A stretch of 52,996 nucleotides of DNA. Origin: Cypionkella sp. (GTDB lineage: Bacteria > Pseudomonadota > Alphaproteobacteria > Rhodobacterales > Rhodobacteraceae). The stretch lies in contig JALOSF010000007.1 of the NCBI GenBank assembly GCA_025458525.1, positions 1 through 52,996 of the forward strand, read 5' to 3'. A model generated the notes under the pieces. The model worked only from the letters and a program-made list of their open reading frames with translations, did no database searches and was not told where the DNA came from. Position numbers and translations under genes: made by a program. Of the stretch, positions 107-15,742 are shown one piece after another (the stretch's first letter is position 1; each line of letters begins with the position of its first letter).

Positions 107-354
107 AAGTAGACGGGTGGAAAGTTTCCCCTCAAAATCTCCACCGACTAACCTGCTGTTTTTACTTACTATTATATAAGAAATAGAAAAGTAGAAGAAG
201 TAGACAAGAAGCAAGGAACAGCGGAAGAACGTACATTAAATAAAGGTCCGACCGTATTAAGAGAGATAGAGCAAAGTTCCTGTCTACTTTTCTAATTTGA
301 TACTTTTACGCAATATCAATGGGTTAGAGCATACTGCATCTGTCCACCTTTCTA
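107..354. repeat. AT-rich region with iteron-like repeats (possible replication or control region)
   Basis: This gene-free stretch is strikingly AT-rich beside the GC-rich surroundings. TGTCTACTTTTCTA (281-294) recurs as TGTCCACCTTTCTA (341-354), exactly 60 bases later, the second copy covering the DUF3987 stop codon. A perfect 12-base inverted copy, TAGAAAAGTAGA, lies at 184-195 against 283-294. Partial copies GTAGAC occur at 109-114 and 200-205. An AT-rich tract with clustered short repeats next to a primase/helicase-type gene is typical of small-element replication origins, but operators for an element regulator would look similar. The function is inferred. Confidence 0.5.
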
Positions 355-1839
355 CTCCAAAAAGCTTTCCGGGCGCGCTATGGCGTAGGCATTGCCCGCA
401 TAGTCGAAGTCTTTCGACAAAACAGCCTTTGACATTTCGGCCAGTTCGCCACTTTCGACCATAATTCGAAGCGTATGCTTTACAGCTTCACTTGATTTGC
501 CAAATGCAGCGTCCTTGAACGGTTTCAACTTCGTGACACTTCGAAGGATATATCCGTATGGAACAATTCGCATTCGATGCAACGCCGATGCATTGGCACC
601 CGCATACGAAGCTACTTCGGGCCATGCGACGACAAGATAACGGCGGATTGCGCGTCTAATTTCGTTTAGACGGGCGACTTCGCTTTGTGACACGTCGCCA
701 ACTTCGCCATCTTCGAACTTGTTCAACAGCCGTTCGATACTGCAAGTAACAAGAGATATGGCCCAACGTGCATCGCAGATTTCAATTGTGGGCTTATAGA
801 GATTGCGACCGACGGCAAGGACACCCGCAACGCGCGAAGCGTGGACATATCCCCGGCCCCAAACCGCCCGCTTGTATTCGTCCTGCGCTTGGTCGCGGCC
901 TTCGTCGCAAGTATTTCGAAAGTCGGTAAGTTCGGCTGTCGCGCTTTCGGATATTTCAACTTCTACGACGGTCTTTGCATGATTGAGATTTAGAGACTGA
1001 CTGCAAAGGCTTGCCAGTTCTTCAAGAAGTTGGGCGCTTGGTTCAACGCTTGCGTGACCTTCGTTGTAGGGCGCAACGCGGTCTTCGCTTTGCAGAATGA
1101 TGAACCGGGCGAAGAACCCGTTGCCCGTGTTGCGTTCGCTAACCACTTCGAAGAACGTCGTCGGGTTGCTGTCGCCAACTATCGTGACCGCCGGGGAATG
1201 CACGTCTTCAATGTTGTTGGCGCTGTCGGCGTATGCAGACTTCCGCAAGACGCTGCCTTTGCCGCCCTTTTCGGAAAGGTCCAATAGCATTTTTCGAAGG
1301 CTTTGCCGCGCTTCGCTGGCCTTCGGTGAAACGATTGGTTCAATCCATTCGCCAAACTCTGGAATGAACATGGCGAAGCAGGGCGGGTTCGACTTCGCCG
1401 TATAGCGGTGCAGAGCGGGCTTTGACGATACGTCGCCGGGTCCGATGAAGGTTGCCGCGTCTGGCACCTTTGCGACGACGGCGTTCAAAAGGATTTCCGG
1501 CCCTTTGGTCGCGGCTTCCTTACCCGACGCAGACGGCGCAAGAAGAACGAAATATTCGTTCAACCCGGAACCTTTGACGTTGTATGCCCTGCCCACAATC
1601 CCGGCTACGAACCCAAGCGCACCGATCAACGCTGCCGACCGCATAGGGCGCGGGGCCTTCGCTTCGATGAACGCGGCGATTTCGCCAACAAGCCCGATAG
1701 GCAACGCGGGAAATTCGGGGAAATCTTCGGCTTCCGTCACGATGTATGAGTAGGGGCGTTCGACGGGCCACGACATGCTTTCGCCAAGCCAAGGCTTGTG
1801 GTCGCGGGCATTGAACGGGGTAAGCAATTTCGAAGACAT
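352..1839 (-). CDS. DUF3987-family primase/helicase-like protein of the integrated element
   Basis: A 495-residue protein resembling the DUF3987/YfjI family of plasmid, phage and island replication-associated proteins, which have a RecA/helicase-like P-loop core. A Walker-A-like APSASGKEA sits near residue 105; the final T/S is replaced by E, as I recall for other members. A hydrophobic stretch ending IPEFGEW looks like the Walker B position. I chose ATG at 1839; an in-frame TTG at 1860 would add seven residues but falls inside a tandem repeat. It follows alpA on the same strand with a hairpin between them, and is followed by the AT-rich repeat region. It may initiate or license replication of the element. 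Family call fairly sure, role inferred. Confidence 0.7.
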   Translation of the reverse strand: MSSKLLTPFNARDHKPWLGESMSWPVERPYSYIVTEAEDFPEFPALPIGLVGEIAAFIEAKAPRPMRSAALIGALGFVAGIVGRAYNVKGSGLNEYFVLLAPSASGKEAATKGPEILLNAVVAKVPDAATFIGPGDVSSKPALHRYTAKSNPPCFAMFIPEFGEWIEPIVSPKASEARQSLRKMLLDLSEKGGKGSVLRKSAYADSANNIEDVHSPAVTIVGDSNPTTFFEVVSERNTGNGFFARFIILQSEDRVAPYNEGHASVEPSAQLLEELASLCSQSLNLNHAKTVVEVEISESATAELTDFRNTCDEGRDQAQDEYKRAVWGRGYVHASRVAGVLAVGRNLYKPTIEICDARWAISLVTCSIERLLNKFEDGEVGDVSQSEVARLNEIRRAIRRYLVVAWPEVASYAGANASALHRMRIVPYGYILRSVTKLKPFKDAAFGKSSEAVKHTLRIMVESGELAEMSKAVLSKDFDYAGNAYAIARPESFLE

Positions 1840-1851
1840 TTTCGGCCCGAT

Positions 1852-1871
1852 CTTAGGCAAGGCTTAGGCAA
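1852..1871. promoter_or_regulatory. Tandem 11-base repeat upstream of the DUF3987 gene
   Basis: CTTAGGCAA occurs at 1852-1860 and 1863-1871, one helical turn apart. The complement of the second copy, TTGCCTAAGC, is also found in tandem just upstream of the integrase (4951-4969). Direct repeats at helical spacing are typical binding sites for excisionase/AlpA-type proteins or integrase arm domains. The protein that binds them is inferred. Confidence 0.45.
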
Positions 1872-1933
1872 AGCGCCGCTTCCCTGCACATTGTTATGAA
1901 TTTCAATGGTTTAAGGTTATCTATTTCGGTAAA

Positions 1934-1954
1934 TGGAAGCCAATACGGCTTCCA
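1934..1954 (-). terminator. Hairpin immediately after alpA
   Basis: TGGAAGCC (1934-1941) and GGCTTCCA (1947-1954) form a perfect 8-base stem with a 5-base loop, directly after the alpA stop codon. On the minus strand it is followed by a weak ATTTACC tract. It could partly separate alpA from the DUF3987 gene or set transcript levels. Confidence 0.5.
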
Positions 1955-2266
1955 TCACGCGCAACGCTTGCGATTTTCGGTCAATTCAACGACCAAGGCG
2001 CGAAGGTCGTCTTCGGTCGCGCCACGAATGCGGGCGGCAAGAATTGCGTTCACTTCGGAAGCGGGCCATGCCGACGACTTTTCGCCAAGCTTGACAGGCC
2101 GAATGAAGGTGCCCTTCGCCATAGCTTCATACAGCGTTGGGCGGGCCATGCCCGTTACCGCGCAAACGTCGGGTGTGCGAAGCAAGGCGTTCGGCACAAG
2201 GGCCGCAGGCGTGAACGCCCGGTCGGGGCTGCCGTAGGAAGCGTTCGGGTTCGCGGGGGTATTCAT
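1955..2266 (-). CDS. AlpA-family excisionase-like DNA-binding protein
   Basis: A 103-residue protein with a MerR/AlpA-type winged helix: LLRTPDVCAVTGMARPTLYE is the helix-turn-helix, followed by a wing (FIRPVKLGEKSSAWP) and the usual closing helix SEVNAILAARI. AlpA proteins of integrative elements activate excision or the integrase promoter. ATG at 2266 is preceded by GGAG at 8 bases. The N-terminal 28 residues are low complexity and probably disordered. It lies between the HEPN-like gene and the DUF3987 gene on the same strand. The tandem 11-base repeats before the DUF3987 gene and the integrase are candidate targets (inference). Confidence 0.82.
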   Translation of the reverse strand: MNTPANPNASYGSPDRAFTPAALVPNALLRTPDVCAVTGMARPTLYEAMAKGTFIRPVKLGEKSSAWPASEVNAILAARIRGATEDDLRALVVELTENRKRCA

Positions 2267-2372
2267 GGGGCTGTCTCCACAAGTTCGGGCATGATTGCCC
2301 GTCTTGCGAAGGTTTGCCCTAGCCCCGCCCGCAGATATGCCACCAAAGGCGCGGGATTAGTGGCAGACGGCT

Positions 2373-2984
2373 TTAGGGTCGCGTCACGACAGGCTTGCCC
2401 GGCCCTGCACCGCCCGGAAACTGGTAGCCCATGTGGGTTACGGTATCTATTACGGAACAAATCAGGTCAGTAACATGCGCCTGAACTTGCGAAAGAAATT
2501 CAATATCGACCTTGCTTTCAAACTGAACCAAATTCCCTGTCGCACGATCCTTCTTCGTAAAGCGCGGAAGCGACCTGCCTTCATTGTCTGGCACCATCCA
2601 ACTGCCATGACAAAGCGTGTTCCGTAAGCTTGCGGCTTCTTTGATTGTCGCGACAAGTTCGCCGATGTTTTCGGTTGAATTGTTGGGGTTAGAGTTTGCG
2701 GCGTCTTCGAACTCTTTCGCCAAGTTCCAAAGCTGCGCCGTCATAATGCGTTCAAGTTGCTTTCCCCATTCTGCCACGGCCTTTTCGGCTTCTTCGGGTG
2801 GAATTGGTCTTGTCCCGGTGAATGCGAATATCCCCCGGCGCAATGTGTCTTCTAGAAACCCAAAGCTTGCAATCGCACGGCCCAAGTGTTCCCAAAATTC
2901 GGGCGTGTGGCGATGGGTCGGCCATTGCGACGGAAGGCTATTTCGATCAGTTATTGCCCGCTTCACTTCGCCGTCTTCTGACAC
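2373..2984 (-). CDS. HEPN-like hypothetical protein with an RNxxxH motif
   Basis: A 203-residue, mostly helical protein that I do not recognise as a named family. Residues 121-126 read RNTLCH, matching the R-polar-X3-H signature of HEPN-fold ribonucleases; it sits at the start of a predicted helix after an acidic helix (ENIGELVATIKEAA), as in that fold. HEPN proteins are common toxins and defence effectors on mobile elements. The start is GTG at 2984, 12 bases after the upstream stop, with only a weak GGCGG. No antitoxin (MNT nucleotidyltransferase) gene is visible next to it. The nuclease role is an inference from one motif. Confidence 0.45.
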   Translation of the reverse strand: MSEDGEVKRAITDRNSLPSQWPTHRHTPEFWEHLGRAIASFGFLEDTLRRGIFAFTGTRPIPPEEAEKAVAEWGKQLERIMTAQLWNLAKEFEDAANSNPNNSTENIGELVATIKEAASLRNTLCHGSWMVPDNEGRSLPRFTKKDRATGNLVQFESKVDIEFLSQVQAHVTDLICSVIDTVTHMGYQFPGGAGPGKPVVTRP

Positions 2985-2996
2985 GCTACACCGCCA

Positions 2997-3536
2997 TTAC
3001 TTAGGGTTGTGGGCAACATGACATGCGGCCCGGTAGGCGTCACGGAATTTTTGAAGCTGCGAACGTTGAAACTTGCCGAACGTTTCATCGTCAACTTGAT
3101 CCAAAGCGGCTTCGGGCTTCATACGTTCGTAAGCGATTTCGCCGATTGCCATTGGCTTCACTTCGTCGGGTTGCACGCCATAGGGTCGCAGAACTTCGGG
3201 GTTGCTCATGGTCGTATGCCGTGCCTGAACTTCGTCGGGGTTCAAGCCGAAGTCTTCAAGTTCGCAGATACGTTTGCCCACAATAAGCCAAGCATCGGGG
3301 TCGGCTGCGGGCTTGCCGCGACCGTTCTTCAAGCCAAGACGGCGCAACAGTTCGGCGGGGTCGCGGTTGGCATAGTGAATGGCTTCGCCAAGCCATGCGG
3401 CAAGTTCACGCGGCACCGCTTCGCGTTTTTCTAGCGATAGCTGCACATCCTCTAGCCTTTCCCATGCTTCGGCTTGGTTTTTTGGGCGTGAGGTATCGGC
3501 GTGGCCGTCGAAGCCATAGGGAAGCGTCGCCATCAT
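2997..3536 (-). CDS. Hypothetical protein coupled to the integrase
   Basis: A 179-residue soluble protein starting MMATLPYGFDGH. The ATG at 3536 overlaps the integrase stop codon (ATGA), so it is probably translated by coupling; a longer reading from 3602 would run through the integrase C-terminus and is unlikely. It has an acidic, helix-rich middle, a short ELLRRLGLKNGRGKPA segment and a C-terminal KFQRSQLQKFRDAYRAAC helix. I do not recognise a family. The coupling suggests a role tied to integrase expression, or a cargo gene relying on the integrase transcript. Confidence 0.6.
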   Translation of the reverse strand: MMATLPYGFDGHADTSRPKNQAEAWERLEDVQLSLEKREAVPRELAAWLGEAIHYANRDPAELLRRLGLKNGRGKPAADPDAWLIVGKRICELEDFGLNPDEVQARHTTMSNPEVLRPYGVQPDEVKPMAIGEIAYERMKPEAALDQVDDETFGKFQRSQLQKFRDAYRAACHVAHNPK

Positions 3537-4936
3537 GCCACCCCCGCCCGCAGTTGAACGACCTTCGCGGCAACCGCTTCGCCCTGACAGAAGCCCGCCC
3601 AAGCCGCCATCATGGCCCGGCGCTGTTCAACAAGATCGGTTCGGCGATATCGCTGTTCGACTTCGTTGCCGACGCGATGCGCCAAGGCGATTTCGGATTG
3701 AATGTTGTCGATACCCGCTTCTGTCGCCCAATCCTTGAAGGTGCTGCGAAGGCCATGCGGCACGGCAGGGCGCGGTTGCGGGGTTTCGGCGGGGTCTTCG
3801 GGTTGTGTCAGAACATGCGGGTCAATCCAGCCCTTGCCGTTCTTCTTCGCCTTGGCTTCGTTCATGCGTTTCATAACGGCGGAAATTGTGGCGTCTGACA
3901 TTTCGCCACCACGCGGGGCCGGGAAGACAAGCGCCTTCGGGTCTTTGTGATCGGCTTCGAAGTTCGGAAGCGCCTTCAAGACGACAATCGCGGCGTCGGA
4001 TAAGGGCACCGAATGCGGCTTTTTCATCTTCATGCGAACGGCGGGGATAGTCCAAATCTTCGCCGCAAGGTCAATTTCGCCCCATGTCGCGCCGCGAACT
4101 TCGCCCGACCGCGACGCGCAAAGGGTCACAAATTCCAGCGCCCGCGCTGCCATGCCTTCACGCTGGCGAAGATCGGCAAACCATGTGGGCAAGTCGGCTT
4201 GCGGGATTGCAGGATGGTTCTGCGCTTCGGCCTTCTTTTGATTCCCTATCCAGACTTCAAGCGTCTTCGGCGACGCCGGGTTGTCGGTTTCGCGGCAACC
4301 TTCGTCAATCGCCCAAGCGAACACGCTTTCCATACGACCGCGAACCCGGCGGGCCGTGTCGGTCTTCGTCGCCCAAATCGGCTTCAAAACTTCCTTCACG
4401 TCGTCAATCGTGATGGTGCCCACATCCTTGTCACCGATCTTTGGCACGGCATGAAGGTCAAGGCTTGCCCGCCATTGCTTGCGGTGCTTATCGCTGCGGA
4501 AATCTTCGATGCGACCCGACTTCATGTATTCCTCAAGCGCGTCGGCAAAGGTCACAATCTTCGGCGCGTCGGGGGTAGACTTCTTCGCGCGGTTCACTTC
4601 GACGGGGTTTTGCCCGGCTTCGACCATTTCCAAAAGTTCGGCGGAACGCTTGCGGGCTTCTTTGACCGATAGCCCGCGTTGCGTCTTCGGTTCGCCGTTC
4701 GGCGGCGTTGGCACCCAACGACCTAAACCCGTGCAGGAAGTCTTGCCATTCATGGTGAAGTAGAATTCCCATGACTTCGATACCTGTTCGACGCCCTTTG
4801 CGTTGACGTGCTTCGTCACCCGCAGGAACAGCCCGTCGGCCAACTTGTCGCGCAGGCGCATGACGGTCTTGCCCGGTTCCGGCCCCTTGACCGAAGCGAC
4901 GAACTTATCATCCAGCTTTTCATACTTGGGCGACAT
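3533..4936 (-). CDS. Tyrosine site-specific integrase (P4/DUF4102 type)
   Basis: A 467-residue integrase catalysing integration and excision of the element. Order: N-terminal arm-binding (DUF4102) domain at about 5-115, including a GLGRWVP-type strand; SAM-like core-binding domain at about 130-225; catalytic domain at 240-450. Visible active-site residues are Arg276 (ASRSGEVRGATW), His394 and Arg397 (PHGLRSTF), His420 (LAHRVGN) and nucleophile Tyr430 (VEQRYRRTDL). The complete set indicates an active enzyme. ATG at 4936 follows tandem TTGCCTAAGC repeats within 35 bases. It is the rightmost gene of the element, so the attachment site is expected in the 330 bases beyond. Confidence 0.93.
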   Translation of the reverse strand: MSPKYEKLDDKFVASVKGPEPGKTVMRLRDKLADGLFLRVTKHVNAKGVEQVSKSWEFYFTMNGKTSCTGLGRWVPTPPNGEPKTQRGLSVKEARKRSAELLEMVEAGQNPVEVNRAKKSTPDAPKIVTFADALEEYMKSGRIEDFRSDKHRKQWRASLDLHAVPKIGDKDVGTITIDDVKEVLKPIWATKTDTARRVRGRMESVFAWAIDEGCRETDNPASPKTLEVWIGNQKKAEAQNHPAIPQADLPTWFADLRQREGMAARALEFVTLCASRSGEVRGATWGEIDLAAKIWTIPAVRMKMKKPHSVPLSDAAIVVLKALPNFEADHKDPKALVFPAPRGGEMSDATISAVMKRMNEAKAKKNGKGWIDPHVLTQPEDPAETPQPRPAVPHGLRSTFKDWATEAGIDNIQSEIALAHRVGNEVEQRYRRTDLVEQRRAMMAAWAGFCQGEAVAAKVVQLRAGVA

Positions 4937-6613: not shown

Positions 6614-7672
6614 ATGATCCCTGCCGCCCTCGCCGTGCCCGGCGACATCACCACCGTCACCGGCGGTTACATCTATGACCGCCGCCTGCTGGAGGAGCTT
6701 CGCCATGCCGGGCGCACCATGCGCCTGATCCCTCTGTCGGACAGCTTCCCCTTTCCGACCGCGGCAGAAATGGCCGCCGATCTGGCGCTGTTGCAGGCGA
6801 TCCCGCCCGACTGCCCGGTGATGATCGACGGGCTGGCCTTTGGCGCGATGGACCCTGCGGGCGTTGCGGCGATTGTGGCGCCGATCGTCGCCCTGGTGCA
6901 TCATCCGCTGGCGCTGGAAACCGGGCTTGCCCCGGCCGAGGCGGCGCGCCTGTTTGAAACCGAGCGCGCCAACCTGCGCCACGCAGCCGAGGTGGTGGTG
7001 CCCAGCCCCCATACGGCGGCCCTGTTGGCCGAGCGTTACGGGGTGCCCGTGCAGCGCCTTCATGTGGCCCGGCCCGGAACGCAGCCACCGCCCGCCAACC
7101 CGCCGCGCCAGCCGGTGACACCGCCGCTGATCCTGTCTGTCGGCATCCTGCACCCCCGCAAGGGGCATGATGTGCTGATCGCGGCGCTGGCCCGGATCGA
7201 TGATCTGGACTGGCAGGCGCAGATCGTGGGCACACCCTGGCAGGCCGGTCACTCGGACAGCTTGCGTCAGCAGATCTCGGCCCTGGGGCTTGCGTCGCGG
7301 CTGCGGCTGGCAGAGGCTGTGCCAGCCGAGGCGCTGGCCGGGCTTTATGCCCAGGCCAGTGTCTTTGCACTGGCCACCCGCCACGAAGGCTATGGCATCG
7401 TGTTCAACGAGGCGCTGGCCCATGGCTTGCCCATCGTGTCCTGCCGCACCGGCGCCGTGCCCGACACGGTGCCCGGGGATGCGGGGATCCTTGTGCCCTG
7501 CGACGATGCGGCGGCCTTTGCCGAGGCCTTGCGCGCGCTGCTGACCGACCAAGGTCTGAGAACCGCCCTGTCCGACGCGGCACGCCGGCATGGCGCGACC
7601 CTGACGGATTGGGCCGAAACCGCGCGTATCGCCGGGCGGGCGCTGGACGCCGCAGCAAGGGGTGCCGCATGA
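6614..7672 (+). CDS. GT4-family glycosyltransferase
   Basis: A 352-residue GT-B fold glycosyltransferase. The N-terminal acceptor half starts MIPAALAVPGDI with a glycine-rich TVTGGYIYDRRL; the C-terminal half has the nucleotide-sugar strand LILSVGILHPRKGHDVL and the GT4 motif EGYGIVFNEAL. It would transfer a sugar from a nucleotide donor to an unknown acceptor in the cytoplasm. ATG at 6614 follows AAAGG at 7 bases; the upstream in-frame ATG at 6554 lacks such a site. Its last four bases overlap the start of the phosphatase gene (ATGA). Because of the RibA/PTPS/RibD-type genes nearby, the acceptor may be a small heterocycle rather than a polysaccharide (inference). Confidence 0.85.
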   Translation: MIPAALAVPGDITTVTGGYIYDRRLLEELRHAGRTMRLIPLSDSFPFPTAAEMAADLALLQAIPPDCPVMIDGLAFGAMDPAGVAAIVAPIVALVHHPLALETGLAPAEAARLFETERANLRHAAEVVVPSPHTAALLAERYGVPVQRLHVARPGTQPPPANPPRQPVTPPLILSVGILHPRKGHDVLIAALARIDDLDWQAQIVGTPWQAGHSDSLRQQISALGLASRLRLAEAVPAEALAGLYAQASVFALATRHEGYGIVFNEALAHGLPIVSCRTGAVPDTVPGDAGILVPCDDAAAFAEALRALLTDQGLRTALSDAARRHGATLTDWAETARIAGRALDAAARGAA

Positions 7673-8493
7673 CCACCGATCCCACCCCACAGGACAAGGC
7701 CGATCTGGCGCTGGCCCAGCAGGCTGCGACAGAGGCGGGGCAGATCCTGCTGCGCCACTGGGCCGCGCGGGCCGACCTGACGGTCACAACCAAACGGGCC
7801 GGTGATTTCCTGTCGCAGGCCGATGTTGCGGCGGAAACCTGCCTGCGCACCATCCTGCTGGGCGCCCGGCCCGAGGATGGCTGGCTGGGCGAGGAAACCG
7901 GCGAAACCGGCCCGGCCCGGCGCCGCTGGATCGTCGATCCTCTGGACGGCACGACCAATTTCCTGCGCGGCATCCCCCATTGGGCGGTGTCCGTCGCGCT
8001 GGAGGTCGAGGGCCTGCGCCGCATCGGCGTGGTGCATGACCCAGTCAAGGGCGAAACCTTCGCGGCCCGTTTGGGCGGGGGGGCCACGCTGAACGGGCGG
8101 CCGATCCGTGTGGCGCAAACCCGCGATCTTTCGGCGGCCCTGTTCGGCACGGGCATTCCGTTTGGCGCGATGAACCATATCGACGATCACGCCGCCGACA
8201 TCGCGCGGCTGGTGCCGCATTGCGCGGGCGTGCGGCGGATGGGGGCGGCGGCGCTCGACCTTGCCTATGTGGCGGCGGGGCGGCTCGATGGGTTCTGGGA
8301 ACGCCGCCTGCGCCCCTGGGATATCGCGGCGGGCCTTGTGCTGCTGCACGAGGCGGGCGCGCAGACCGCCGCGCTCGACAAAGGCGACCGACCAGAGGCT
8401 TCGGGCACGGTGCTGACCGCAACGCCCGCGCTGTTTGCGGCCTTTGCCAGTATCTTGCGCGATCAGCCCACGGCCGAGGGCAGCCGCGCATAA
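7669..8493 (+). CDS. Inositol monophosphatase-family phosphatase
   Basis: A 274-residue metal-dependent phosphatase of the IMPase/CysQ/histidinol-phosphatase family. Visible motifs are EETGE (metal-binding acid), WIVDPLDGTTNF (signature metal site) and RPWDIAAG near the C-terminus (third metal Asp). Family substrates include inositol phosphate, 3'-phosphoadenosine phosphate and sugar phosphates; the sequence does not say which. It is translationally coupled to the glycosyltransferase (ATGA), suggesting removal of a phosphate from the same pathway intermediate. Its 3' end overlaps the convergent FkbM gene by 31 bases. Confidence 0.85.
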   Translation: MTTDPTPQDKADLALAQQAATEAGQILLRHWAARADLTVTTKRAGDFLSQADVAAETCLRTILLGARPEDGWLGEETGETGPARRRWIVDPLDGTTNFLRGIPHWAVSVALEVEGLRRIGVVHDPVKGETFAARLGGGATLNGRPIRVAQTRDLSAALFGTGIPFGAMNHIDDHAADIARLVPHCAGVRRMGAAALDLAYVAAGRLDGFWERRLRPWDIAAGLVLLHEAGAQTAALDKGDRPEASGTVLTATPALFAAFASILRDQPTAEGSRA

Positions 8494-9206
8494 AGATCGC
8501 CGGACCCCGCCTCGGGGCCAAGCCCGCGCAGCCACGCCCGCGTGTCCTCGGGGCCTTGCCAGCGGTCCCACAGAAAGGCCGCGGCCTCGCCCCGCACGGG
8601 ATTGAACTGATAGGGTCCAAGCTGCATCAGCCGGTCAATCACCGCCAGCGTCAGATCCGGAAAGCCCGGCAGATATTCGACCGAGACATAGTCCACCGGC
8701 TGGCTGAGGCCCGAAAGCACTTCGAGTTCATAGCCTTCGACATCGATCTTGATATAACGCGGCACGCCTTCCTCGGCGATCAGACGGTCAAGCGTCGTGA
8801 CCTGCACCTGCTGTGCTGTGTCCCAACGCACATGTTCGAAGCCCGGCGCCGCGGCGGCCTGCTCGACGAAGCCGGTCTTGAGCGACGACACCGTCGGGTG
8901 GCGCGACGACACCGCCATCTGCGCCACGCTGACCGAACCGCCTGCCGCCGCCTCGACCAGCCGGATGTCGTCCGGCAAGGTCAGGCGCAAATAGCGCGCA
9001 AAGATCCCCTGCGGCTCCAGCGCCACGACACGCGCGCCGGCAGCCCGCATCGCCCGCGCGCGGGTGCCGACATGGGCGCCGATGTCAAAGGCCAGATCGC
9101 CGGGACGCAGCAGGCCGCCGTAAAACCGGCGCAGGGGCCGCGTCCTCACCGGGTTGTGATAGATCACGACCGAGCGCAACAGACCGAGCCACTTCGTCAC
9201 CTTCAC
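8463..9206 (-). CDS. FkbM-family SAM-dependent methyltransferase
   Basis: A 247-residue protein with the FkbM methyltransferase core: motif I LAFDIGAHVGTRA, a following ALEP acid strand, and the family block YIKIDVEGYELEVLSGL. FkbM enzymes O-methylate sugars and polyketides. I set the start at GTG 9206 (MKVTKWLG) because GGGGAG lies 7 bases upstream; starts at 9239 and 9320 have no binding site. The gene is divergent from ribA and convergent with the phosphatase inside the metabolic cluster, so it may methylate the same product or be an unrelated insertion. Confidence 0.8.
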   Translation of the reverse strand: MKVTKWLGLLRSVVIYHNPVRTRPLRRFYGGLLRPGDLAFDIGAHVGTRARAMRAAGARVVALEPQGIFARYLRLTLPDDIRLVEAAAGGSVSVAQMAVSSRHPTVSSLKTGFVEQAAAAPGFEHVRWDTAQQVQVTTLDRLIAEEGVPRYIKIDVEGYELEVLSGLSQPVDYVSVEYLPGFPDLTLAVIDRLMQLGPYQFNPVRGEAAAFLWDRWQGPEDTRAWLRGLGPEAGSGDLYARLPSAVG

Positions 9207-9375
9207 TCCCGATCTCCCCTTTTTGCGTTGCAAACCCATGTGCCGGGCAAGGCAGATAGCGTGCTTGCGCAAAGTCCCAAGGGGCTTGGCGAAAGATCGC
9301 GCAAGTGCTTTGCCACGCACGGAAAGTGGCGGGGGGCACTTGTCTGCCCCAATGTGACACTATGTAGAAGGCGCT

Positions 9376-10533
9376 GTGACATCCATTGGTTTTCTCATGA
9401 ACGCACCTTCCCTCAGCCGCCTGGTGGCGGCGCATAGTCCCTCGGCCCTTGCGCCCGATCTTACCGCGCGGGTGATGCGCGTGAAGGGCGATGTGCGGCT
9501 GGGTGTTCCGGTCGTGCTGACCGATGGTCATGCGGCGGCGCTGATCGTCGCGATCGAGGCCCTGACGGCCGACCGTCTGGCCGCGCTTCAGGCGATGGGA
9601 TCGGTGCCCGAGGTCGCGATCACCCGCCCGCGCGCGGCGTTCCTTGGCCATGGCGATTTGCCGGTGGCAAAGGTTCTGGCGCTCGACCTGCCGCCCGGGG
9701 CCGACCTTGCGGCGGTGCGCGCGATGGCAGAACCGGCGGCGCGGGCCGGCACGCCCCCGCCCCTGCATGACAGGTTGCGCGCGGGCGATGCCTTGCATCA
9801 GGCGGCCATCGCGCTGTGCAAATCGGCGCAGCTGTTGCCCGCCGCGCTGGTGCTGCCGGTGGCCGACGGGCTGGCCGAGGCGCAGCGCCATGGCCTGTGC
9901 CTGATCGCCGCGACAGATGTGCTTGCCGATCTGAAATCGGCGCGGGCGCAACGCCCGGTGTCGTCGGCCCCGCTGCCGATGGCGGTTCATGCCGCGGGGC
10001 GCGTGCATGTGTTTCGCCCCGATGACGGCGGGATCGAACATTACGCCATCGAAATCGGCGCGCCAGACCTGCGCGCCCCCGTTCTGGTGCGGCTGCATTC
10101 GGCCTGCTTCACCGGCGATGTGATGGGCAGCCTGAAATGCGATTGCGGCCCGCAGCTGCATGCCGCCTGTGCGGCGATGGCGGCCGAGGGAGGCGGGGTG
10201 CTGCTTTACCTCAATCAGGAAGGGCGCGGCATCGGCATGGCGAACAAGATGCGCGCCTATGCCCTGCAAGAGGCCGGTCACGACACGGTCGAGGCCAACC
10301 ACCACCTGGGCTTTGACGATGACGAGCGGGATTTCCGCATCGGTGCGGCGCTGCTGTCGCAGCTGGGGATTGGGTCGGTGCGGCTGTTGACGAACAATCC
10401 GGCCAAGGTTCGGATGCTGTCGGCCCATGGCATCGACATCGTGGACCGCGTGCCGCTGGCCGTGGGCAAGACCGAACAAAACGCCCGCTACCTTGCCACG
10501 AAGGCCAGCAAATCGGGCCATTTGCTGCCATGA
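9376..10533 (+). CDS. ribA: GTP cyclohydrolase II (RibA) with a long N-terminal domain
   Basis: A 385-residue protein. The C-terminal 190 residues are GTP cyclohydrolase II, which opens GTP to 2,5-diamino-6-ribosylamino-pyrimidinone phosphate, formate and pyrophosphate. The zinc site is clear (HSACFTGDVMGSLKCDCG, three Cys), as is the NQEGRGIGMANKMRAYALQ loop. The N-terminal 190 residues are not a recognisable dihydroxybutanone-phosphate synthase; alphaproteobacterial RibA often carries such an extension. The likely start is GTG 9376 behind AGAAGG; ATG 9397 is possible. Its stop overlaps the next gene (ATGA), placing it first in a five-gene operon. It may be the housekeeping riboflavin enzyme or one dedicated to this pathway. 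Confidence 0.88.
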   Translation: MTSIGFLMNAPSLSRLVAAHSPSALAPDLTARVMRVKGDVRLGVPVVLTDGHAAALIVAIEALTADRLAALQAMGSVPEVAITRPRAAFLGHGDLPVAKVLALDLPPGADLAAVRAMAEPAARAGTPPPLHDRLRAGDALHQAAIALCKSAQLLPAALVLPVADGLAEAQRHGLCLIAATDVLADLKSARAQRPVSSAPLPMAVHAAGRVHVFRPDDGGIEHYAIEIGAPDLRAPVLVRLHSACFTGDVMGSLKCDCGPQLHAACAAMAAEGGGVLLYLNQEGRGIGMANKMRAYALQEAGHDTVEANHHLGFDDDERDFRIGAALLSQLGIGSVRLLTNNPAKVRMLSAHGIDIVDRVPLAVGKTEQNARYLATKASKSGHLLP

Positions 10534-11480
10534 TGGCGCAGGCCCTTTGGTGCACCGCCCCGGACCGGGCCGAAATCCGCGCAGCAAACCTGGGCGAAGG
10601 CATTGCGGTTCAGACCCTGTTCACCGGCATCAGCCGGGGGACGGAGCGGCTGGTGTCCAAGGGTCTTGTGCCGCGCTCGGAACAGGTGCGGATGCGCGGG
10701 CCGGGGATGGAGGGCGATTTTCCGTTTCCGGTCAAATACGGCTATTGCAACGTGGGCCGGGTGCTTGAAGGCGCCGATGCCGGGCGGGCGGTCTTTGCGC
10801 TGTTCCCGCATCAGACTGCCTATCGCCTGCCACAGTCGGCGCTGACCCTGCTGCCCGAGGCGCTGCCGCCGGGCCGGGCGGTGCTGGCCGCGAACATGGA
10901 AACCGCGCTCAACATCCTGTGGGACAGCGGCGCGGGCGCGGGCGACCGCATCGCGGTGATCGGCGCGGGCGTCGTCGGCACCTTGACAGCCTGGCTTGCC
11001 GCGCGCCTGCCGGGGGCCGAGGTCACGCTGTGCGACATCAGCCCGGCACGCGCCGGGCTTGCCGCCACGCTTGGCCTGCGCTTTGCCGCGCCGCAGGATG
11101 TGCCGCAGGACTGCGATGTGGTGATCCACACCAGCGCGTCAGAGGCGGGTCTGGCGCAGGCGCTGTCGCTGGCAGGGCTGGGGGCCACGGTGGTCGAGGC
11201 CAGCTGGTATGGCGACCGGCCTGTCACCCTGCCGCTGGGCGAGGCGTTTCACAGCCGCCGCCTGCGCCTGATCAGCAGTCAGGTGGGCAATCTGCCGCCC
11301 GAGCGCAGCCCGCGCTGGACCTATGCCCGACGCCTGGCCAAGGCGCTGGATCTGCTGTGCGATCCCGCGCTTGATGCGCTGATCTCGGGCGAGACGGACT
11401 TTGCCGCCCTGCCCGATGTTTACAGCAAAATTCTCGATGCGCCTGAAACTCTGTGCCACCGCATTCGGTTTACAGGCTGA
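10530..11480 (+). CDS. BchC-like medium-chain dehydrogenase lacking obvious zinc ligands
   Basis: A 316-residue medium-chain dehydrogenase/reductase resembling the BchC/zinc-binding dehydrogenase group: TGISRGTERL in the N-terminal catalytic domain and a Rossmann nucleotide site VIGAGVVGTLTAWLAA near residue 150. The usual catalytic-zinc His-Glu pair is replaced by KYGYCNVGRV, and no structural-zinc Cys cluster is present, so it may be zinc-free. It would reduce or oxidise a hydroxyl/carbonyl using NAD(P). ATG 10530 overlaps the ribA stop. This is unlikely to be a photosynthesis gene: no other bch genes are near, and its neighbours point to pterin/flavin-type chemistry. Confidence 0.75.
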   Translation: MMAQALWCTAPDRAEIRAANLGEGIAVQTLFTGISRGTERLVSKGLVPRSEQVRMRGPGMEGDFPFPVKYGYCNVGRVLEGADAGRAVFALFPHQTAYRLPQSALTLLPEALPPGRAVLAANMETALNILWDSGAGAGDRIAVIGAGVVGTLTAWLAARLPGAEVTLCDISPARAGLAATLGLRFAAPQDVPQDCDVVIHTSASEAGLAQALSLAGLGATVVEASWYGDRPVTLPLGEAFHSRRLRLISSQVGNLPPERSPRWTYARRLAKALDLLCDPALDALISGETDFAALPDVYSKILDAPETLCHRIRFTG

Positions 11481-11527
11481 CCCCGCCGATCCCACCACGC
11501 GCCGACCCCACCCTGCAAGGAGCCGCT

Positions 11528-11923
11528 ATGTACGCCGTCGAAGTCCGTGACCATATCATGATCGCCCATTCCTTTCCCTCGCCGCTGTTCGGCCCGGCGC
11601 AGGGGGTGCATGGGGCGACCTTCACGGTGGATGTGGCATTCTTTGCCGATGACATCGACGAACACGGGCTGGTGGTGGACATCGGCCTTGCGATCGAGGC
11701 GCTGTCACAGGTGTTGCAGCCGCTGCGCTACAAGAACCTGGACGAGGCCGAGGAATTCAAAGGCATTTTCACCACCACCGAGTTCCTCTCGGGCCATATC
11801 TTTCGCGAAATGGCGGCGCGCGTGCGGGCGGGCGATCTGAAGGACGCAGGCCGCGTCAAACGGCTGCGCGTCACGCTGCACGAAAGCCATCTGGCGCGCG
11901 GCTGGTATGAGGCCGAGATCTGA
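11528..11923 (+). CDS. 6-pyruvoyl/6-carboxytetrahydropterin synthase-fold protein with altered active site
   Basis: A 131-residue T-fold protein aligning end to end with QueD/PTPS: AHSF (first zinc His, residue 14), LVVDIGLA, the T-x-E segment TTTEFLSGH, and a C-terminal Glu (residue 119). Canonical HGH is HGA (28-30), so one zinc ligand is missing; the catalytic Cys position is Ala24 (PAQGVHG); and the Asp-His pair of LDHH is replaced in LRYKN (66-70). It is therefore probably not a normal QueD and may bind a different substrate or act differently. ATG 11528 is preceded by AAGGAG. It lies 47 bases after the dehydrogenase and 3 bases before the methyltransferase. Confidence 0.8.
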   Translation: MYAVEVRDHIMIAHSFPSPLFGPAQGVHGATFTVDVAFFADDIDEHGLVVDIGLAIEALSQVLQPLRYKNLDEAEEFKGIFTTTEFLSGHIFREMAARVRAGDLKDAGRVKRLRVTLHESHLARGWYEAEI

Positions 11924-11926
11924 GCC

Positions 11927-12706
11927 ATGGGATTTTCCGCATCCTGGCTGGCCTTGCGCGAACCTGCCGACCATGCGGCGCGGGACGAGGGCCTGTTGCG
12001 GGCGGCGGTCCAGGCGGCAGGCGCCGACCCGGTGATCGTCGATCTGGGCAGTGGCACGGGGTCCACCTTGCGCGCCTTTGCGCCGCATCTGGGGCGACCC
12101 GCGCGCTGGCGGCCGGTCGATCATGACCCGACCCTTCTGGCCCATGCGGCAGCGTCTGCCGATGGTCTGGCAACGACGCATCAGATCGATCTGCGCGACC
12201 TTGAGGCCCTGCCGCTCGACCAGGCCAGTCTTGTCACCGCTTCGGCGCTGCTGGACCTGTGTTCCGAGGCTTGGGTGCGCGGGCTTGCCCAGCGGCTTGC
12301 GGCGCGGTCGCTGCCGTTTTACGCGGCGCTGAACTATGACGGGGTGATGCATTGGTCGCCGCCCGCTCTGGCCGATGCGGATGTGACACAGGCCTTCAAC
12401 CGCCATCAGCGCGGCGACAAGGGCTTTGGCCCGGCCCTTGGCCCGGATGCAGCGTCGGCGATTGCCGATATCTTCGGCGCTGCCGGCTTTACCGTTTTGC
12501 GCGCGCAAAGCCCGTGGCGGCTTGGTCCCGAGGACGCGGCATTGCAGCGCGAGCTGCTGGCCGGCATCGCCCAGGCCGCCGCCGAGGCGGGGGCAGAGGC
12601 CGCGCCAGACTGGCTGCGCACCCGGCTGGATGCCCTGCCGCAAGCCCAGTGCCACATCGGCCACCTCGATATTCTTGCGCTGCCCCCGGATCAGGGCGCG
12701 AGATGA
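11927..12706 (+). CDS. Class I SAM-dependent methyltransferase
   Basis: A 259-residue Rossmann-fold methyltransferase. Motif I is VIVDLGSGTGS (about residue 37), followed by an RPVDHDPTLL acid strand and a motif IV-like SLVTASALLDLCSE. The C-terminal half carries ALNYDGVMHWSP, probably substrate-facing. The ATG at 11927 lies 3 bases after the preceding stop, so the two genes are coupled. Substrate unknown; by context it would methylate the heterocycle made by its operon partners. Confidence 0.8.
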   Translation: MGFSASWLALREPADHAARDEGLLRAAVQAAGADPVIVDLGSGTGSTLRAFAPHLGRPARWRPVDHDPTLLAHAAASADGLATTHQIDLRDLEALPLDQASLVTASALLDLCSEAWVRGLAQRLAARSLPFYAALNYDGVMHWSPPALADADVTQAFNRHQRGDKGFGPALGPDAASAIADIFGAAGFTVLRAQSPWRLGPEDAALQRELLAGIAQAAAEAGAEAAPDWLRTRLDALPQAQCHIGHLDILALPPDQGAR

Positions 12707-12728
12707 GCGGCACCACAGGAGGACAGCG

Positions 12729-13574
12729 ATGCAAGCGGTGACAGTGACCCCCAAAGTCTGGGAACGCATCCTTTCGGTGCGTGCGGGCCTTTCCTGCGCC
12801 TGTTGCGGCAACTGGACCGAGGGCGAGCGCGCGGCGCTGGCGCTTTATGGCCCCTTGGCGCGGCGCGATCTGGGCCCGGTCGCGGTGGCGCAGATCGGCC
12901 AGTCGCTGGACGGGCGGGTGGCGACTGTTTCGGGCGATGCGCGCGATGTGTCGGGCCCCGATGGTCTTGCGCATCTGCACCGGATGCGGGCGCTGGTCGA
13001 TGGCGTGGTGATCGGGGTCGGCACGGCGCTGCACGATCAGGCGCGGTTGACCGTGCGGCTGTGCAGCGGCCCGAACCCGGCGCGGATCGTGATCGACCCC
13101 AAGGGCCGCTTGCCCGACGATGCCCCTGCCCTGCGCGCCGATGGCACCCGCCGCATCGTGGTGCAGGCGGTGGATCGGCCGCGTCCTGCCGGGGTCGAGG
13201 TGCTGCGCCTGCCGTTGTGCGACGGGGTGTTCCGCCCCGAGACCCTGTGTGACGCCCTGCATGAGGCCGGTTTGCAGACCCTGCTGATCGAAGGGGGCGC
13301 CATCACCATCGCAGCCTTTCTGGAGGCGGGGCTTCTGGCGCGGCTTCAGGTGGCGGTGGCGCCCCTCTTGATCGGCGCGGGGCCTGCGGCGCTGACCACC
13401 CGGCAGCCCAAGCTCAAGCTGGCCGATTGCCTGCGCCCCGAAATGCGGGTGTTCGGGCTTGGGTCGGATGTGCTGTTCGATTGCAGCCTGTCGCCCCAGG
13501 CTGCCGCCGCCCTCCTGCCGCTGCACCATCCCGCCGAACGGCGGCCGCGCCGGGCGGCCTCGCTTCTGTCCTGA
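12729..13574 (+). CDS. RibD C-terminal (reductase)-domain protein
   Basis: A 281-residue protein whose main part is the DHFR-like RibD_C/HTP reductase domain: IGQSLDGRVA, GVVIGVGTAL, PARIVIDPKGRLP and LLIEGG are the family landmarks. In riboflavin synthesis this domain reduces the ribosyl side chain with NADPH. The deaminase domain of full RibD (HAE and PCxxxxxC zinc motifs) is absent; instead the first 55 residues contain CACCGNW. ATG 12729 follows GGAGG. It is the last gene of the ribA operon, so a role on the RibA product or a derivative is likely, but whether it serves riboflavin or a side pathway is open. Confidence 0.82.
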   Translation: MQAVTVTPKVWERILSVRAGLSCACCGNWTEGERAALALYGPLARRDLGPVAVAQIGQSLDGRVATVSGDARDVSGPDGLAHLHRMRALVDGVVIGVGTALHDQARLTVRLCSGPNPARIVIDPKGRLPDDAPALRADGTRRIVVQAVDRPRPAGVEVLRLPLCDGVFRPETLCDALHEAGLQTLLIEGGAITIAAFLEAGLLARLQVAVAPLLIGAGPAALTTRQPKLKLADCLRPEMRVFGLGSDVLFDCSLSPQAAAALLPLHHPAERRPRRAASLLS

Positions 13575-13614: not shown

Positions 13615-14394
13615 CTAGTCCACCATCTGCGTCGCAAGGGCGAAATCGGTCAGTTCCGCCTCGACAAGGATATAGATGTCTTGCGGCGGGGTTTGCATCG
13701 CACGGGCCGCCAGCCGCAGATCGATCCCCATCTCGGTCAGATAATCCAGCACCTCGGCCTGGCCGTGCTGGATGCTTTCCACCGCCAGAAAGGCGGGCAG
13801 CAAGGTGTTTTCGCCGAAATAGTGCTGATGCACCCCGACCAGCGCGCCACGGCTGACGATGCGCTCGGTTCCGGCAGCAAGGATATAGGGGCAGGCCGAA
13901 AAGCAGGCGGCCCCGTCTTGCATCGCAACGGGCCAGCCTGCCGCGCGGATGGTCCGCCCGATGTCAAGCGCGTCGGCCACCGACCCGCCGGGGCTGTGCA
14001 AAGCGATGCGGTCGGGCGTGACCGCATCGCCCTGCGCCAGATGCTGCGCAAAACGGGTCGCATCGCCGGGCGCGATTTCGCCTTCCAGCAGCAGGGTCAG
14101 GCCGCCCGCGTCGCGCACTTCGGTGAATTGCAGCCGGGCGGGCAGCGTGTCGCTGCGGGGAAAACCGGGGCTGGCGGGGCGATCCTGCGGCAGATCGCGC
14201 GGGCTGTAGCGCCGGGTCTGATCGCCGGGGCGCACCGGAACTGCGGCGGGCGGTGGCGGATCGGCACGCAGCATCTCGGGCACCAGCCGCTGGAAATCGC
14301 CAAACACGATCACCCCCGCCAGCGCGATCTGCAAGACCAGCATCGCCTGCAACACCCGCCCCGCGCGAGACACGCGCCTGCCCTGCGCCGCCAT
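13615..14394 (-). CDS. ClpP/SppA-like COG3904-type membrane-anchored protein
   Basis: A 259-residue protein with one N-terminal membrane segment (about 16-33, LQAMLVLQIALAGVIVF) and a probable periplasmic crotonase/ClpP-like domain. Landmarks are RIALHSPGGSVADALDIG (the oxyanion-type glycine turn) and CFSACPYILAAG, where the Ser matches the nucleophile position of ClpP/SppA relatives, then GVHQHYF with a possible catalytic His. Activity is unproven for this group. It starts 7 bases after the stop of the 446-residue membrane protein and is surely co-transcribed with it. It converges with the RibD-like gene. Confidence 0.7.
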   Translation of the reverse strand: MAAQGRRVSRAGRVLQAMLVLQIALAGVIVFGDFQRLVPEMLRADPPPPAAVPVRPGDQTRRYSPRDLPQDRPASPGFPRSDTLPARLQFTEVRDAGGLTLLLEGEIAPGDATRFAQHLAQGDAVTPDRIALHSPGGSVADALDIGRTIRAAGWPVAMQDGAACFSACPYILAAGTERIVSRGALVGVHQHYFGENTLLPAFLAVESIQHGQAEVLDYLTEMGIDLRLAARAMQTPPQDIYILVEAELTDFALATQMVD

Positions 14395-14401
14395 GACCGC
14401 G

Positions 14402-15742
14402 CTACCGCCGGGCGCCCAGCACGATGGCGGGCGGCTCTGGCTCGGGGCTGGCAGAGGGTGCGGCGGGGTCGGCCGTTCCCTTGCGCATCGGCGATGCGGC
14501 GCCCTGTGGCGCGTCCTGTGCCGGGCCTTCGACGCTTTCCAGATCGCGCAGCGCCGTCACCGCAGCGCGCAATTCGGCCAGCGTCATGGTTTCGGCGGGG
14601 TCCGTGCTTTCACGGTCGGCACGGATCGCGCCTTGCGCCACCATCATGATGAACACCAGCACCGCAGGCAGCAGATCGATCGCAATCGCCCCCGCCCACG
14701 AGGGGATGAAGTCCCCGGCATAGCGCAAGACCGCGTCGGCGGTCGAAATCGGGCTGTAGGTGGTGTCATCCGGGGTGGGCATCGCCAGCACCTCATCGGC
14801 AGCGGCCTTGAGAGTGCCCGCCCGCTGCGCCAGCAAGCCCAGCACCGCGTCGATGGTGCTGCGCTGATCGTTGCGGATGCTGTCGGTCGATCCGTCGAGT
14901 TCCGGCACCACGACCGAAGCCGACAGATCCTGCGCTGCCCGCGCGACCAGAGGCGCCACCGACAGTTGCCGCAATTGCGCGATCAACCCGGCCAGACGCA
15001 CCGATTCTTCGGCGAATTCGACCGACCGCTGCTCGATGTCGCCGCTTGACGCGGTCAGCGCGCGCATCCGGCTCAGGATCTGGTTGCCCTCGGCAAAGGC
15101 GGCCTCGACCAGCGGCCCCTGCGCCGTGATCTGCGCTTCGAGCCCCGCAAGCTCATCCGCCTTCTGGGTCAGCACGCGAAACACCGCGCCACGCCCGGCG
15201 GTGCCCGACAGGTTGCCCGTCGCCTCTTGCGCCGACAGATCGGCAAAGCTCTGGCGCGTGCGGGCCACATCCAGCGACAGGCCCTGTGCCGCCACCGCAA
15301 CGCGGTGCGCCTGTTCCAGCCCGGTCTGATACTGCTGCACGGTGCGGGCAAGATGCTGTTCCACAGCCGCCGATCCGGCCAGCGCGGCGGCATTCAGCCA
15401 ACTTGACATGGCGATGATCGCAAGCGAGCCAAGCGCCATCGACAAAAACAGCCCTAGCCGCGCCGCGCCCGTGCGCACCGCCGGCAACAGGCGGATCATA
15501 TAGCTCCAGAACACGAAGATCGCGACGGACACGGCCAGCGAATAGGCAACCGCCGCAAGGAATGACAGCGCCCCGGTCCCGTTGAGCAGGGACGACACCC
15601 CAAGGTAGGTGTAGATGCCAGAGGCCACCGAAAGGACGCCCAGGGCCATTGGGGTAAAGGTTTCCAGCGCCGCCAGATGGCCTTCGATCTCGCGCGCGGA
15701 ATGCAGGCCACGCGTTTCGGCGGCGGTCGGTCTGGCGGGCAT
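14402..15742 (-). CDS. Four-segment membrane protein with a long coiled-coil domain (unknown function)
   Basis: A 446-residue protein that I do not recognise. Hydrophobic segments lie at about 31-51, 57-79, 95-113 and 350-372; between the third and fourth is a 230-residue Ala/Gln/Glu-rich helical, coiled-coil-like region that should be on one side of the membrane, plausibly the periplasm. The C-terminal 70 residues are Pro/Ala-rich and disordered. ATG 15742 has AAGGAG at 8 bases. It forms a two-gene unit with the ClpP-like protein downstream, suggesting a membrane scaffold plus protease-fold partner (inference). Confidence 0.6.
   Translation of the reverse strand: MPARPTAAETRGLHSAREIEGHLAALETFTPMALGVLSVASGIYTYLGVSSLLNGTGALSFLAAVAYSLAVSVAIFVFWSYMIRLLPAVRTGAARLGLFLSMALGSLAIIAMSSWLNAAALAGSAAVEQHLARTVQQYQTGLEQAHRVAVAAQGLSLDVARTRQSFADLSAQEATGNLSGTAGRGAVFRVLTQKADELAGLEAQITAQGPLVEAAFAEGNQILSRMRALTASSGDIEQRSVEFAEESVRLAGLIAQLRQLSVAPLVARAAQDLSASVVVPELDGSTDSIRNDQRSTIDAVLGLLAQRAGTLKAAADEVLAMPTPDDTTYSPISTADAVLRYAGDFIPSWAGAIAIDLLPAVLVFIMMVAQGAIRADRESTDPAETMTLAELRAAVTALRDLESVEGPAQDAPQGAASPMRKGTADPAAPSASPEPEPPAIVLGARR

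Follow-up and report, generated by a model that had tools for sequence, protein, structure and literature searches.

What is a GTP cyclohydrolase II doing beside a pterin-type fold, a dehydrogenase, methyltransferases and a glycosyltransferase, and do these genes form a unit at all? The question is raised by eight genes of Cypionkella sp. (Rhodobacteraceae) in a stretch of 52,996 nucleotides, hereafter the window (GenBank assembly GCA_025458525.1, contig JALOSF010000007.1), numbered 132 among the contigs of a draft genome of 3.43 Mb that is 87% complete. They encode a family 4 glycosyltransferase (GT4), an inositol-monophosphatase-family phosphatase (IMPase), an FkbM-type methyltransferase, RibA (GTP cyclohydrolase II), a dehydrogenase resembling BchC, a T-fold protein resembling PTPS, a class I S-adenosylmethionine (SAM) methyltransferase, and a stand-alone RibD_C reductase. 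We find a genuine cluster, not an incidental one; a chance origin is excluded because the set recurs in other genomes. Our reading, to which we give a probability of roughly 0.55, is that it encodes a dedicated pathway that would branch from guanosine triphosphate (GTP) through a RibA and RibD_C front end and end in a glycosylated product.

Recurrence of the gene set

The set was followed through 149 genomes of the family, representing 148 genera, with strong orthologues defined at E ≤ 3.8e-82 for the BchC-like gene (the next best match being at 7.2e-14) and at E ≤ 1e-25 for RibD_C and GT4. The strong BchC-like orthologue occurs in 13 of the 149 genomes and the PTPS-like gene in the identical 13 (p 6e-19); any BchC-like match at E 1e-3 is found in 84, as for a large enzyme superfamily. 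RibD_C is present in 11 genomes, all within the PTPS-like-positive 13. In one genome (G083) the BchC-like gene lies on contig C20, the PTPS-like gene and GT4 on C42 and RibD_C on C28, and since all are retained on three contigs, their co-retention there is independent of linkage. An earlier note on this DNA, drawn from the sequence alone, had held that the cluster would be incidental if ribA were a single copy, a deletion cost the cell riboflavin alone, and the other genes did not travel together. The first and the last of these do not hold: the PTPS-like, dehydrogenase and RibD_C genes co-occur across many genomes, and ribA has further copies elsewhere in this one. Domains were called by Pfam and NCBIfam searches of the window proteins, scored against family cut-offs, and the eight genes are as follows.

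6614-7672, plus strand: GT4 glycosyltransferase (Pfam Glycos_transf_1, 1.6e-28; relatives in PDB; orthologues in 26 of the 149 genomes of the family)
7669-8493, plus strand: IMPase (Pfam Inositol_P, 7.8e-58; 4-base overlap with GT4)
8463-9320, minus strand: FkbM-type methyltransferase (Pfam FkbM, 7.7e-15; NCBIfam)
9397-10533, plus strand: RibA (GTP cyclohydrolase II) with an N-terminal extension (Pfam GTP_cyclohydro2, 1.9e-58; alignment with 2bz0)
10530-11480, plus strand: BchC-like dehydrogenase of the MDR type, core gene (NCBIfam; 4-base overlap with RibA)
11528-11923, plus strand: PTPS-like T-fold protein of the SCO6650 (3d7j) family (Pfam PTPS, 3e-20; gap 47)
11927-12706, plus strand: class I SAM methyltransferase, core gene (Pfam Methyltransf_25, 5.9e-7, above cut-off; gap 3)
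12729-13574, plus strand: stand-alone RibD_C reductase (Pfam RibD_C, 3.1e-31; PDB 2azn, 6p8c; gap 22)

All eight are intact at their predicted coordinates and spacings, and their translations are free of internal stops in an open reading frame check. The run of five co-directional, tightly packed genes from ribA to RibD_C that the earlier note had described was reproduced with all its gaps (-4, 47, 3 and 22 bases); coordinates and Pfam likewise bear out its coupled GT4-phosphatase pair and the neighbouring FkbM gene, and the domain identities that it named agree with the Pfam and NCBIfam searches.

Beyond the family, a scan of named genomes returned at least 593 stretches with the pattern, at least 576 of them relatives, and the best 80 of these relatives were kept for neighbourhood counts. 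Among these 80, the methyltransferase is present in 78, the BchC-like gene in 77, GT4 in 68, RibD_C in 58, RibA and FkbM in 36 each, and IMPase in 26. The best PTPS-like relatives among the named genomes are Rhodobacteraceae, and a survey of the phylum found the PTPS-like gene in 27 of 398 genomes (20 of 213 genera). A larger count covered 127 loci that were picked through the PTPS-like gene (100% by construction) and stopped where their contig stopped or after about 20 kb, so that absence from a locus stretch is not absence from a genome; matches below 60 bits were dropped, and the 127 exclude L047 (a stretch without the PTPS-like gene), L039, L157 and L158, the last two of which lay beyond the ranges set for the loci. 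The BchC-like gene is found in 122 of these loci, the methyltransferase in 119, GT4 in 108, RibD_C in 93, RibA in 52, FkbM in 48 and IMPase in 32. The four core genes all occur together in 102 loci, in 31 gene orders (seven genes counted, cut and partial sets included). The earlier note had treated the glycosyltransferase, phosphatase and FkbM genes as linked to the five; for GT4 this stands, and IMPase and FkbM are frequent, not constant, members.

The PTPS-like gene is also found in 20 plasmid records, including those of Streptomyces, Microbacterium, Arthrobacter, Thiodictyon, Methylosinus and Agrobacterium, and gene content was examined in ten of them. Much the same set recurs on one plasmid each of Streptomyces, Microbacterium and Thiodictyon and in genomes of other classes. 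The plasmid records examined label its PTPS-like member as a queuosine gene and its RibA member as a riboflavin gene. On two of the three Streptomyces plasmids examined (L135, L136) the PTPS-like gene stands alone in the stretch; near these lone paralogues are cupin, MBL-fold and sigma-70 genes. A single-protein query of a viral collection returned no close relatives. A cluster of the Rhodobacterales type (L071) is also present in a record that bears the actinomycete name Aquiluna sp., which reflects either wrong binning or transfer.

Around the cluster, the left end of the window (352-4936) carries the remains of an integrative element, namely DUF3987, an AlpA-like regulator and a tyrosine integrase, and a tRNA search of the window found none. 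The two genes to the right of the cluster (13615-15742), one with a weak ClpP-like match and neither with a Pfam match, have homologues close to the cluster in 2 of the 80 loci (L091, L111).

Enzyme residues and separation from riboflavin supply

The PTPS-like gene of the window is the sole PTPS match in the genome. Its product matches the structure of SCO6650 (3d7j) at E 9.9e-35 over residues 1-129, the next PDB match being at E 0.11, and the nearest NCBIfam model, QueD, scores 29.2 against a cut-off of 89.25; on these scores, the protein is not a member of the QueD family. Canonical PTPS and QueD enzymes have three zinc histidines, including that of an HGH motif, together with a catalytic Cys and an Asp-His pair. 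In this family the third zinc His is replaced by Ala (an HGA motif) in all 129 members, and His 14 and His 28 alone remain of the zinc set in the alignment. FGPAQ stands in 128 of 129 members at the place of the expected catalytic Cys, and Tyr68, at the place of the expected His, is invariant in the 84 sequences aligned; Thr83-Thr84-Glu85 and Glu119 are further invariant positions. Which canonical residues are replaced at these places is presumed from general knowledge of the family, read against the alignment. With the third zinc His and the expected catalytic residues gone, a canonical PTPS or QueD identity was rejected, and the action on dihydroneopterin triphosphate that the earlier note had drawn on for PTPS-fold enzymes cannot be assumed here, the catalytic set of PTPS being missing.

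In RibA, the zinc Cys set and the RAYxxQ Tyr of GTP cyclohydrolase II are both present in the window protein. All 35 aligned sequences have C248, C250 and the tyrosine of RAYxxQ (Tyr288), and 34 have C237. Over the loci, 55 RibA proteins are of the Tyr type and one, from Streptomyces fungicidicus, is of the Met type. A rule pairing the Met-type RibA with a creatininase-family gene was considered and rejected, as four Tyr-type loci also hold that gene. The nearest solved structures to RibD_C are the archaeal-type reductases 2azn and 6p8c. For the dehydrogenase, BchC is the nearest NCBIfam model, with a score of 45.7 bits where the cut-off is 291, Pfam ADH_zinc_N falls below its cut-off (25.8 against 31.8 bits), and the sole PDB match is an alcohol dehydrogenase at E 2.3e-5; judged by these scores, it is not a BchC-family member.

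Could RibA and RibD_C simply be a spare riboflavin supply, duplicates that lie beside unrelated genes by chance? Both belong by Pfam to riboflavin families, and the genome holds three RibA-type genes and three RibD_C matches. The earlier note had asked whether a second ribA and a full ribD exist elsewhere, and both do: contig 24 carries a lumazine-binding protein (ribE type), ribBA, ribH and nusB, contig 181 a third RibA, and contig 129 a full RibD including the deaminase domain. The cluster protein, in contrast, has the RibD_C domain alone, with no N-terminal deaminase by Pfam. As a riboflavin operon the cluster does not qualify, since the rib set of the genome lies elsewhere, on other contigs. 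It contains neither a lumazine nor a riboflavin synthase. Rfam at gathering cut-offs gave no match in the window, hence no flavin mononucleotide (FMN) riboswitch there, and a scan of six related loci gave one tRNA and nothing else. Given the separate rib genes, the missing deaminase domain and riboswitch, and the strict co-occurrence of RibD_C with the PTPS-like and BchC-like genes, this explanation is already largely contradicted; we consider it highly improbable and set it aside.

Glycosyltransferase, importer and envelope genes

GT4 is also found where the cluster is not. Of the 26 family genomes that hold it, 13 have the PTPS-like gene and 13 do not, and what is new here is that in these latter 13 GT4 is tied to an ATP-binding cassette (ABC) importer, whose binding protein is of the NMT1/THI5 type and is accompanied by an ATPase and a fused permease. 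The importer is present in 12 of the 13, and in the thirteenth (G147), the one exception, an importer permease (79% identity) adjoins GT4 at the start of a contig; the importer adjoins GT4 in 11 of the 13 and lies on a different contig in G048 and G125. The binding protein occurs at 72% identity or more in 14 genomes, of which G000 (the genome of the window) and G063 have both sets, and five further genomes have only matches at 33-35%, which we take as paralogues. All 25 genomes with the PTPS-like gene or the binding protein also hold GT4 (Fisher p 1.6e-27, overstated as the genomes are related). In a midpoint-rooted GT4 tree, 44 of the 127 tips group with a support of 0.998, and this group contains all 13 importer-linked copies, 4 unlinked copies and 27 cluster copies, including that of the window. 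The pattern looks like synthesis versus import of one compound or of a close relative. As to the ligand, the nearest PDB entries to the binding protein are 4nmy (a binder with an unnamed ligand), 3ix1 (ThiY, a binder of the thiamine pyrimidine), THI13, 3qsl and THI5, and any ligand named from this weak similarity and the gene context would be a guess.

The system extends beyond the window in its own genome. Contig 116 (L229) carries the importer set with a GT4 60% identical to that of the window and a flippase-like gene at the contig end, and contig 73 (L156) opens in a flippase-like gene that is followed by genes for a sulfatase-fold membrane protein, a CDP-alcohol phosphatidyltransferase and cytochrome b561. 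The two contigs are likely to be one locus broken by assembly. Similar genes are found around the cluster in other bacteria. Among the 127 loci, the phosphatidyltransferase is present in 61 (all 12 of other classes, 2 of 5 on actinomycete plasmids and 47 of the other 110), the flippase-like gene in 50 (10 of the 12 of other classes), the sulfatase-fold gene in 48, cytochrome b561 in 46 and an OpgH-like glucosyltransferase in 41. The phosphatidyltransferase motif D..DG..AR........G...D...D, searched with a pattern in which one place may be G or A and another R or Q, is kept in 80 of 81 sequences, the copy of this genome being that on contig 73. One locus (L040) joins phosphatidyltransferase and sulfatase-fold domain in a single open frame. 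For the sulfatase-fold protein, Pfam Sulfatase is matched by 18 of 25 members; a single sequence found nothing in PDB, and a profile found two ATP-synthase subunits alone (E 0.08-0.09).

The suggestion is of an envelope-linked product. A profile search for the phosphatidyltransferase in 21 PTPS-like-positive and 20 PTPS-like-negative genomes gave matches at E 1e-8 in 18 of the 41, with a subfamily score (above 180 bits) in G408, G164 and the control G327 alone and all others below 46 bits; the search was not blind, as the negative state of the seven family genomes and of 14 among the 20 controls was known beforehand. An obligate lipid end-product was rejected on this count: other alphaproteobacterial families supply 14 cluster genomes, all those that the phylum survey found, and the gene is present in only 2 of them. 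The phosphatidyltransferase and OpgH-like genes also occur together less often than expected (10 loci with both, 51 and 31 with one alone, 35 with neither; p 3e-4). Because the phosphatidyltransferase is patchy across cluster genomes and anti-associated with OpgH, we treat it as a variable delivery module. Near the OpgH-like gene, three loci (L044, L047 and L049) have DUF1611 and class IV aminotransferase genes, and two (L044, L047) also an MR_MLE-family gene; these families come from BLAST grouping, with Pfam run on members from L044 and L049.

Proposed pathway and related systems

The idea of the earlier note, a pathway that diverts GTP or riboflavin intermediates into a modified pterin or pyrimidine, is supported in part. 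What we observe is the gene set, its co-occurrence, the conservation of residues and the rule for GT4, and from these we infer each catalytic step and its place in the sequence of reactions, which way the transporter works and on what ligand, and what the product would be. RibA, with its residues intact, would open GTP to 2,5-diamino-6-ribosylamino-4(3H)-pyrimidinone 5'-phosphate, as is known for its family. To judge from its closest relatives, RibD_C would reduce the ribosyl chain, giving ribityl with no deamination, which is the order known from archaea and fungi. The BchC-like dehydrogenase may then oxidise a side-chain alcohol, and the PTPS-fold protein, degenerate in its catalytic residues, could bind the 2-amino-4-oxo ring and aid condensation. 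In the version that we prefer, and which is unproved, oxidation of the 2'-OH would allow the 5-amino group to close the ring, giving a pterin of the 7,8-dihydroneopterin type. If C1' is first reduced and C2' then oxidised, the result is the ketone of the GTP cyclohydrolase I rearrangement. Computed masses are 355.09 for the ribityl intermediate and, after loss of two hydrogens and water, 335.06, that of dihydroneopterin monophosphate. Such a closure would account for a reductase and a dehydrogenase beside a T-fold protein. GTP cyclohydrolase I itself (PF01227) was not found in the 87%-complete genome; its second type was not searched for, and nothing is drawn from this absence. The methyltransferase, the IMPase where present, and GT4 would methylate, dephosphorylate and glycosylate the product. 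Relatives without the synthesis genes that keep GT4 appear to import the aglycone or a close compound by the ABC transporter, and the phosphatidyltransferase, flippase-like and sulfatase-fold proteins that many bacteria have, among them this one, suggest delivery to lipid or periplasm. Carried to its end, this would be a pterin route free of GTP cyclohydrolase I, with ring closure on a PTPS fold devoid of zinc, its product glycosylated, methylated and placed on phospholipid or periplasmic glucan as a redox-active group of the envelope, while bacteria that have no synthesis genes would take up the ring from their neighbours; in this full form we think it quite unlikely.

Several points weigh against the dedicated pathway or parts of it. 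The role of the PTPS-like protein and the ring closure are argued purely from chemistry. RibD_C was not found in 2 of the 13 cluster genomes, G008 (82% complete) and G017; RibA is in only 52 of the 127 loci; the S. fungicidicus plasmid stretch is without RibD_C, and that of an Arthrobacter plasmid without methyltransferase and RibD_C. Kinship among the 149 genomes means that the Fisher p values overstate independence. The idea that the creatininase-family gene serves solely to take off a formyl group that a Met-type RibA leaves in place does not hold generally. The importer might have a different cargo, as the PDB matches of its binding protein are weak (E 1.6e-7 to 6e-4), the Pfam family of that protein is broad, NCBIfam gives it a sub-threshold SsuA match alone, and the ATPase and permease are nearest to nitrate, sulfonate, taurine and Sao-type models. 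Finally, within the family the phosphatidyltransferase is found in 6 of the 13 genomes that have the cluster and in 14 of the 136 that do not, and in the other families it accompanies the PTPS-like gene in only the two genomes noted above.

Two alternatives keep part of the pathway and change its product. The compound may be a glycoside of ribitylamino-diaminopyrimidinone in which no pterin ring is ever formed; the PTPS-like protein would then act in binding or transfer. The loss of the expected catalytic residues fits this, and so, weakly, does the importer binding protein, which among structures with a named ligand is nearest to pyrimidine binders. Against it, the fold is kept, as are the Glu and Thr-Glu positions, which by comparison with PTPS structures would suit a 2-amino-4-oxo ring, and the reason for a dehydrogenase becomes less clear. 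We regard the pyrimidine as somewhat unlikely. Alternatively, the pterin glycoside would be soluble or secreted and serve in light or redox protection or in signalling, with the envelope module as a frequent neighbour. This is favoured by the phosphatidyltransferase being missing from 12 of the 14 other-family cluster genomes and occurring in those 14 family genomes that lack the cluster, and it has precedents (PMC13259868) in cyanobacterial pterin glycosides and in a periplasmic pterin signal of Agrobacterium. Yet the phosphatidyltransferase lies inside the cluster in other classes and on two actinomycete plasmids, and in Rhodobacterales it is often beside GT4 and the importer. A soluble product is, in our view, somewhat unlikely.

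If the dedicated pathway is correct, a product would be assigned to a widespread and unexplained gene set, and the synthesis-or-import rule for GT4 offers a handle for finding the molecule, with the importer binding protein as bait. Should the product be a periplasmic pterin, it would bear on how pterins cross the membrane in proteobacterial pterin signalling. A 2026 review states that cyanobacteria produce pterin glycosides, that Agrobacterium signals with periplasmic pterins, and that the membrane crossing of pterins in proteobacteria is unknown (PMC13259868). In the open-licence literature we noticed no description of the gene set, which is not proof as subscription papers were mostly outside the search; the portions of PMC3223725 and PMC12871164 returned for the terms asked hold nothing on it.

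One of the closest known systems is that of Streptomyces. SCO6650 of Streptomyces coelicolor (PDB 3d7j) belongs to the same family as the PTPS-like protein, and a plasmid of S. fungicidicus brings together dehydrogenase, PTPS-like, GT4, methyltransferase, flippase-like, creatininase-family, RibA and phosphatidyltransferase genes; the window RibA has Tyr where that of S. fungicidicus has Met. In work of the Bandarian laboratory on SCO6650 and SCO6655, the latter reportedly ends at the formyl product because it has Met in place of Tyr. PMC2853524 lists SCO6655 as a GTP cyclohydrolase II among genes with expression anticorrelated to predicted flux, and the 2006 Streptomyces work is cited in PMC3509567. 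With the riboflavin pathway the cluster has its first two enzyme families, RibA and RibD, in common; it differs in adding the PTPS-like, dehydrogenase, methyltransferase and GT4 genes, and in lacking the deaminase. The nearest PDB entries to GT4 are the predicted glycosyltransferases 3c4q and 3c48, followed by cyanobacterial 6kih, MshA-type 7qsg, PimB' and PimA. We take 3c4q and 3c48 to be MshA. MshA (mycothiol) and PimA and PimB' (phosphatidylinositol mannoside) are GT4 enzymes among the nearest solved relatives, and no evidence of inositol was found for the cluster. ThiXYZ-type importers resemble the importer in a binding protein near ThiY and THI5/THI13 and in an ATPase with a fused permease; the similarity is weak, the ATPase and permease are nearer to other importer types, and the surrounding genes are GT4 and those of the lipid module. 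Cyanobacterial pterin glycosides, whose sugar is added by a glycosyltransferase, start from GTP cyclohydrolase I, whereas the front end of the cluster would be RibA and RibD_C. What they would share with the product proposed here is a pterin that bears a sugar (PMC13259868).

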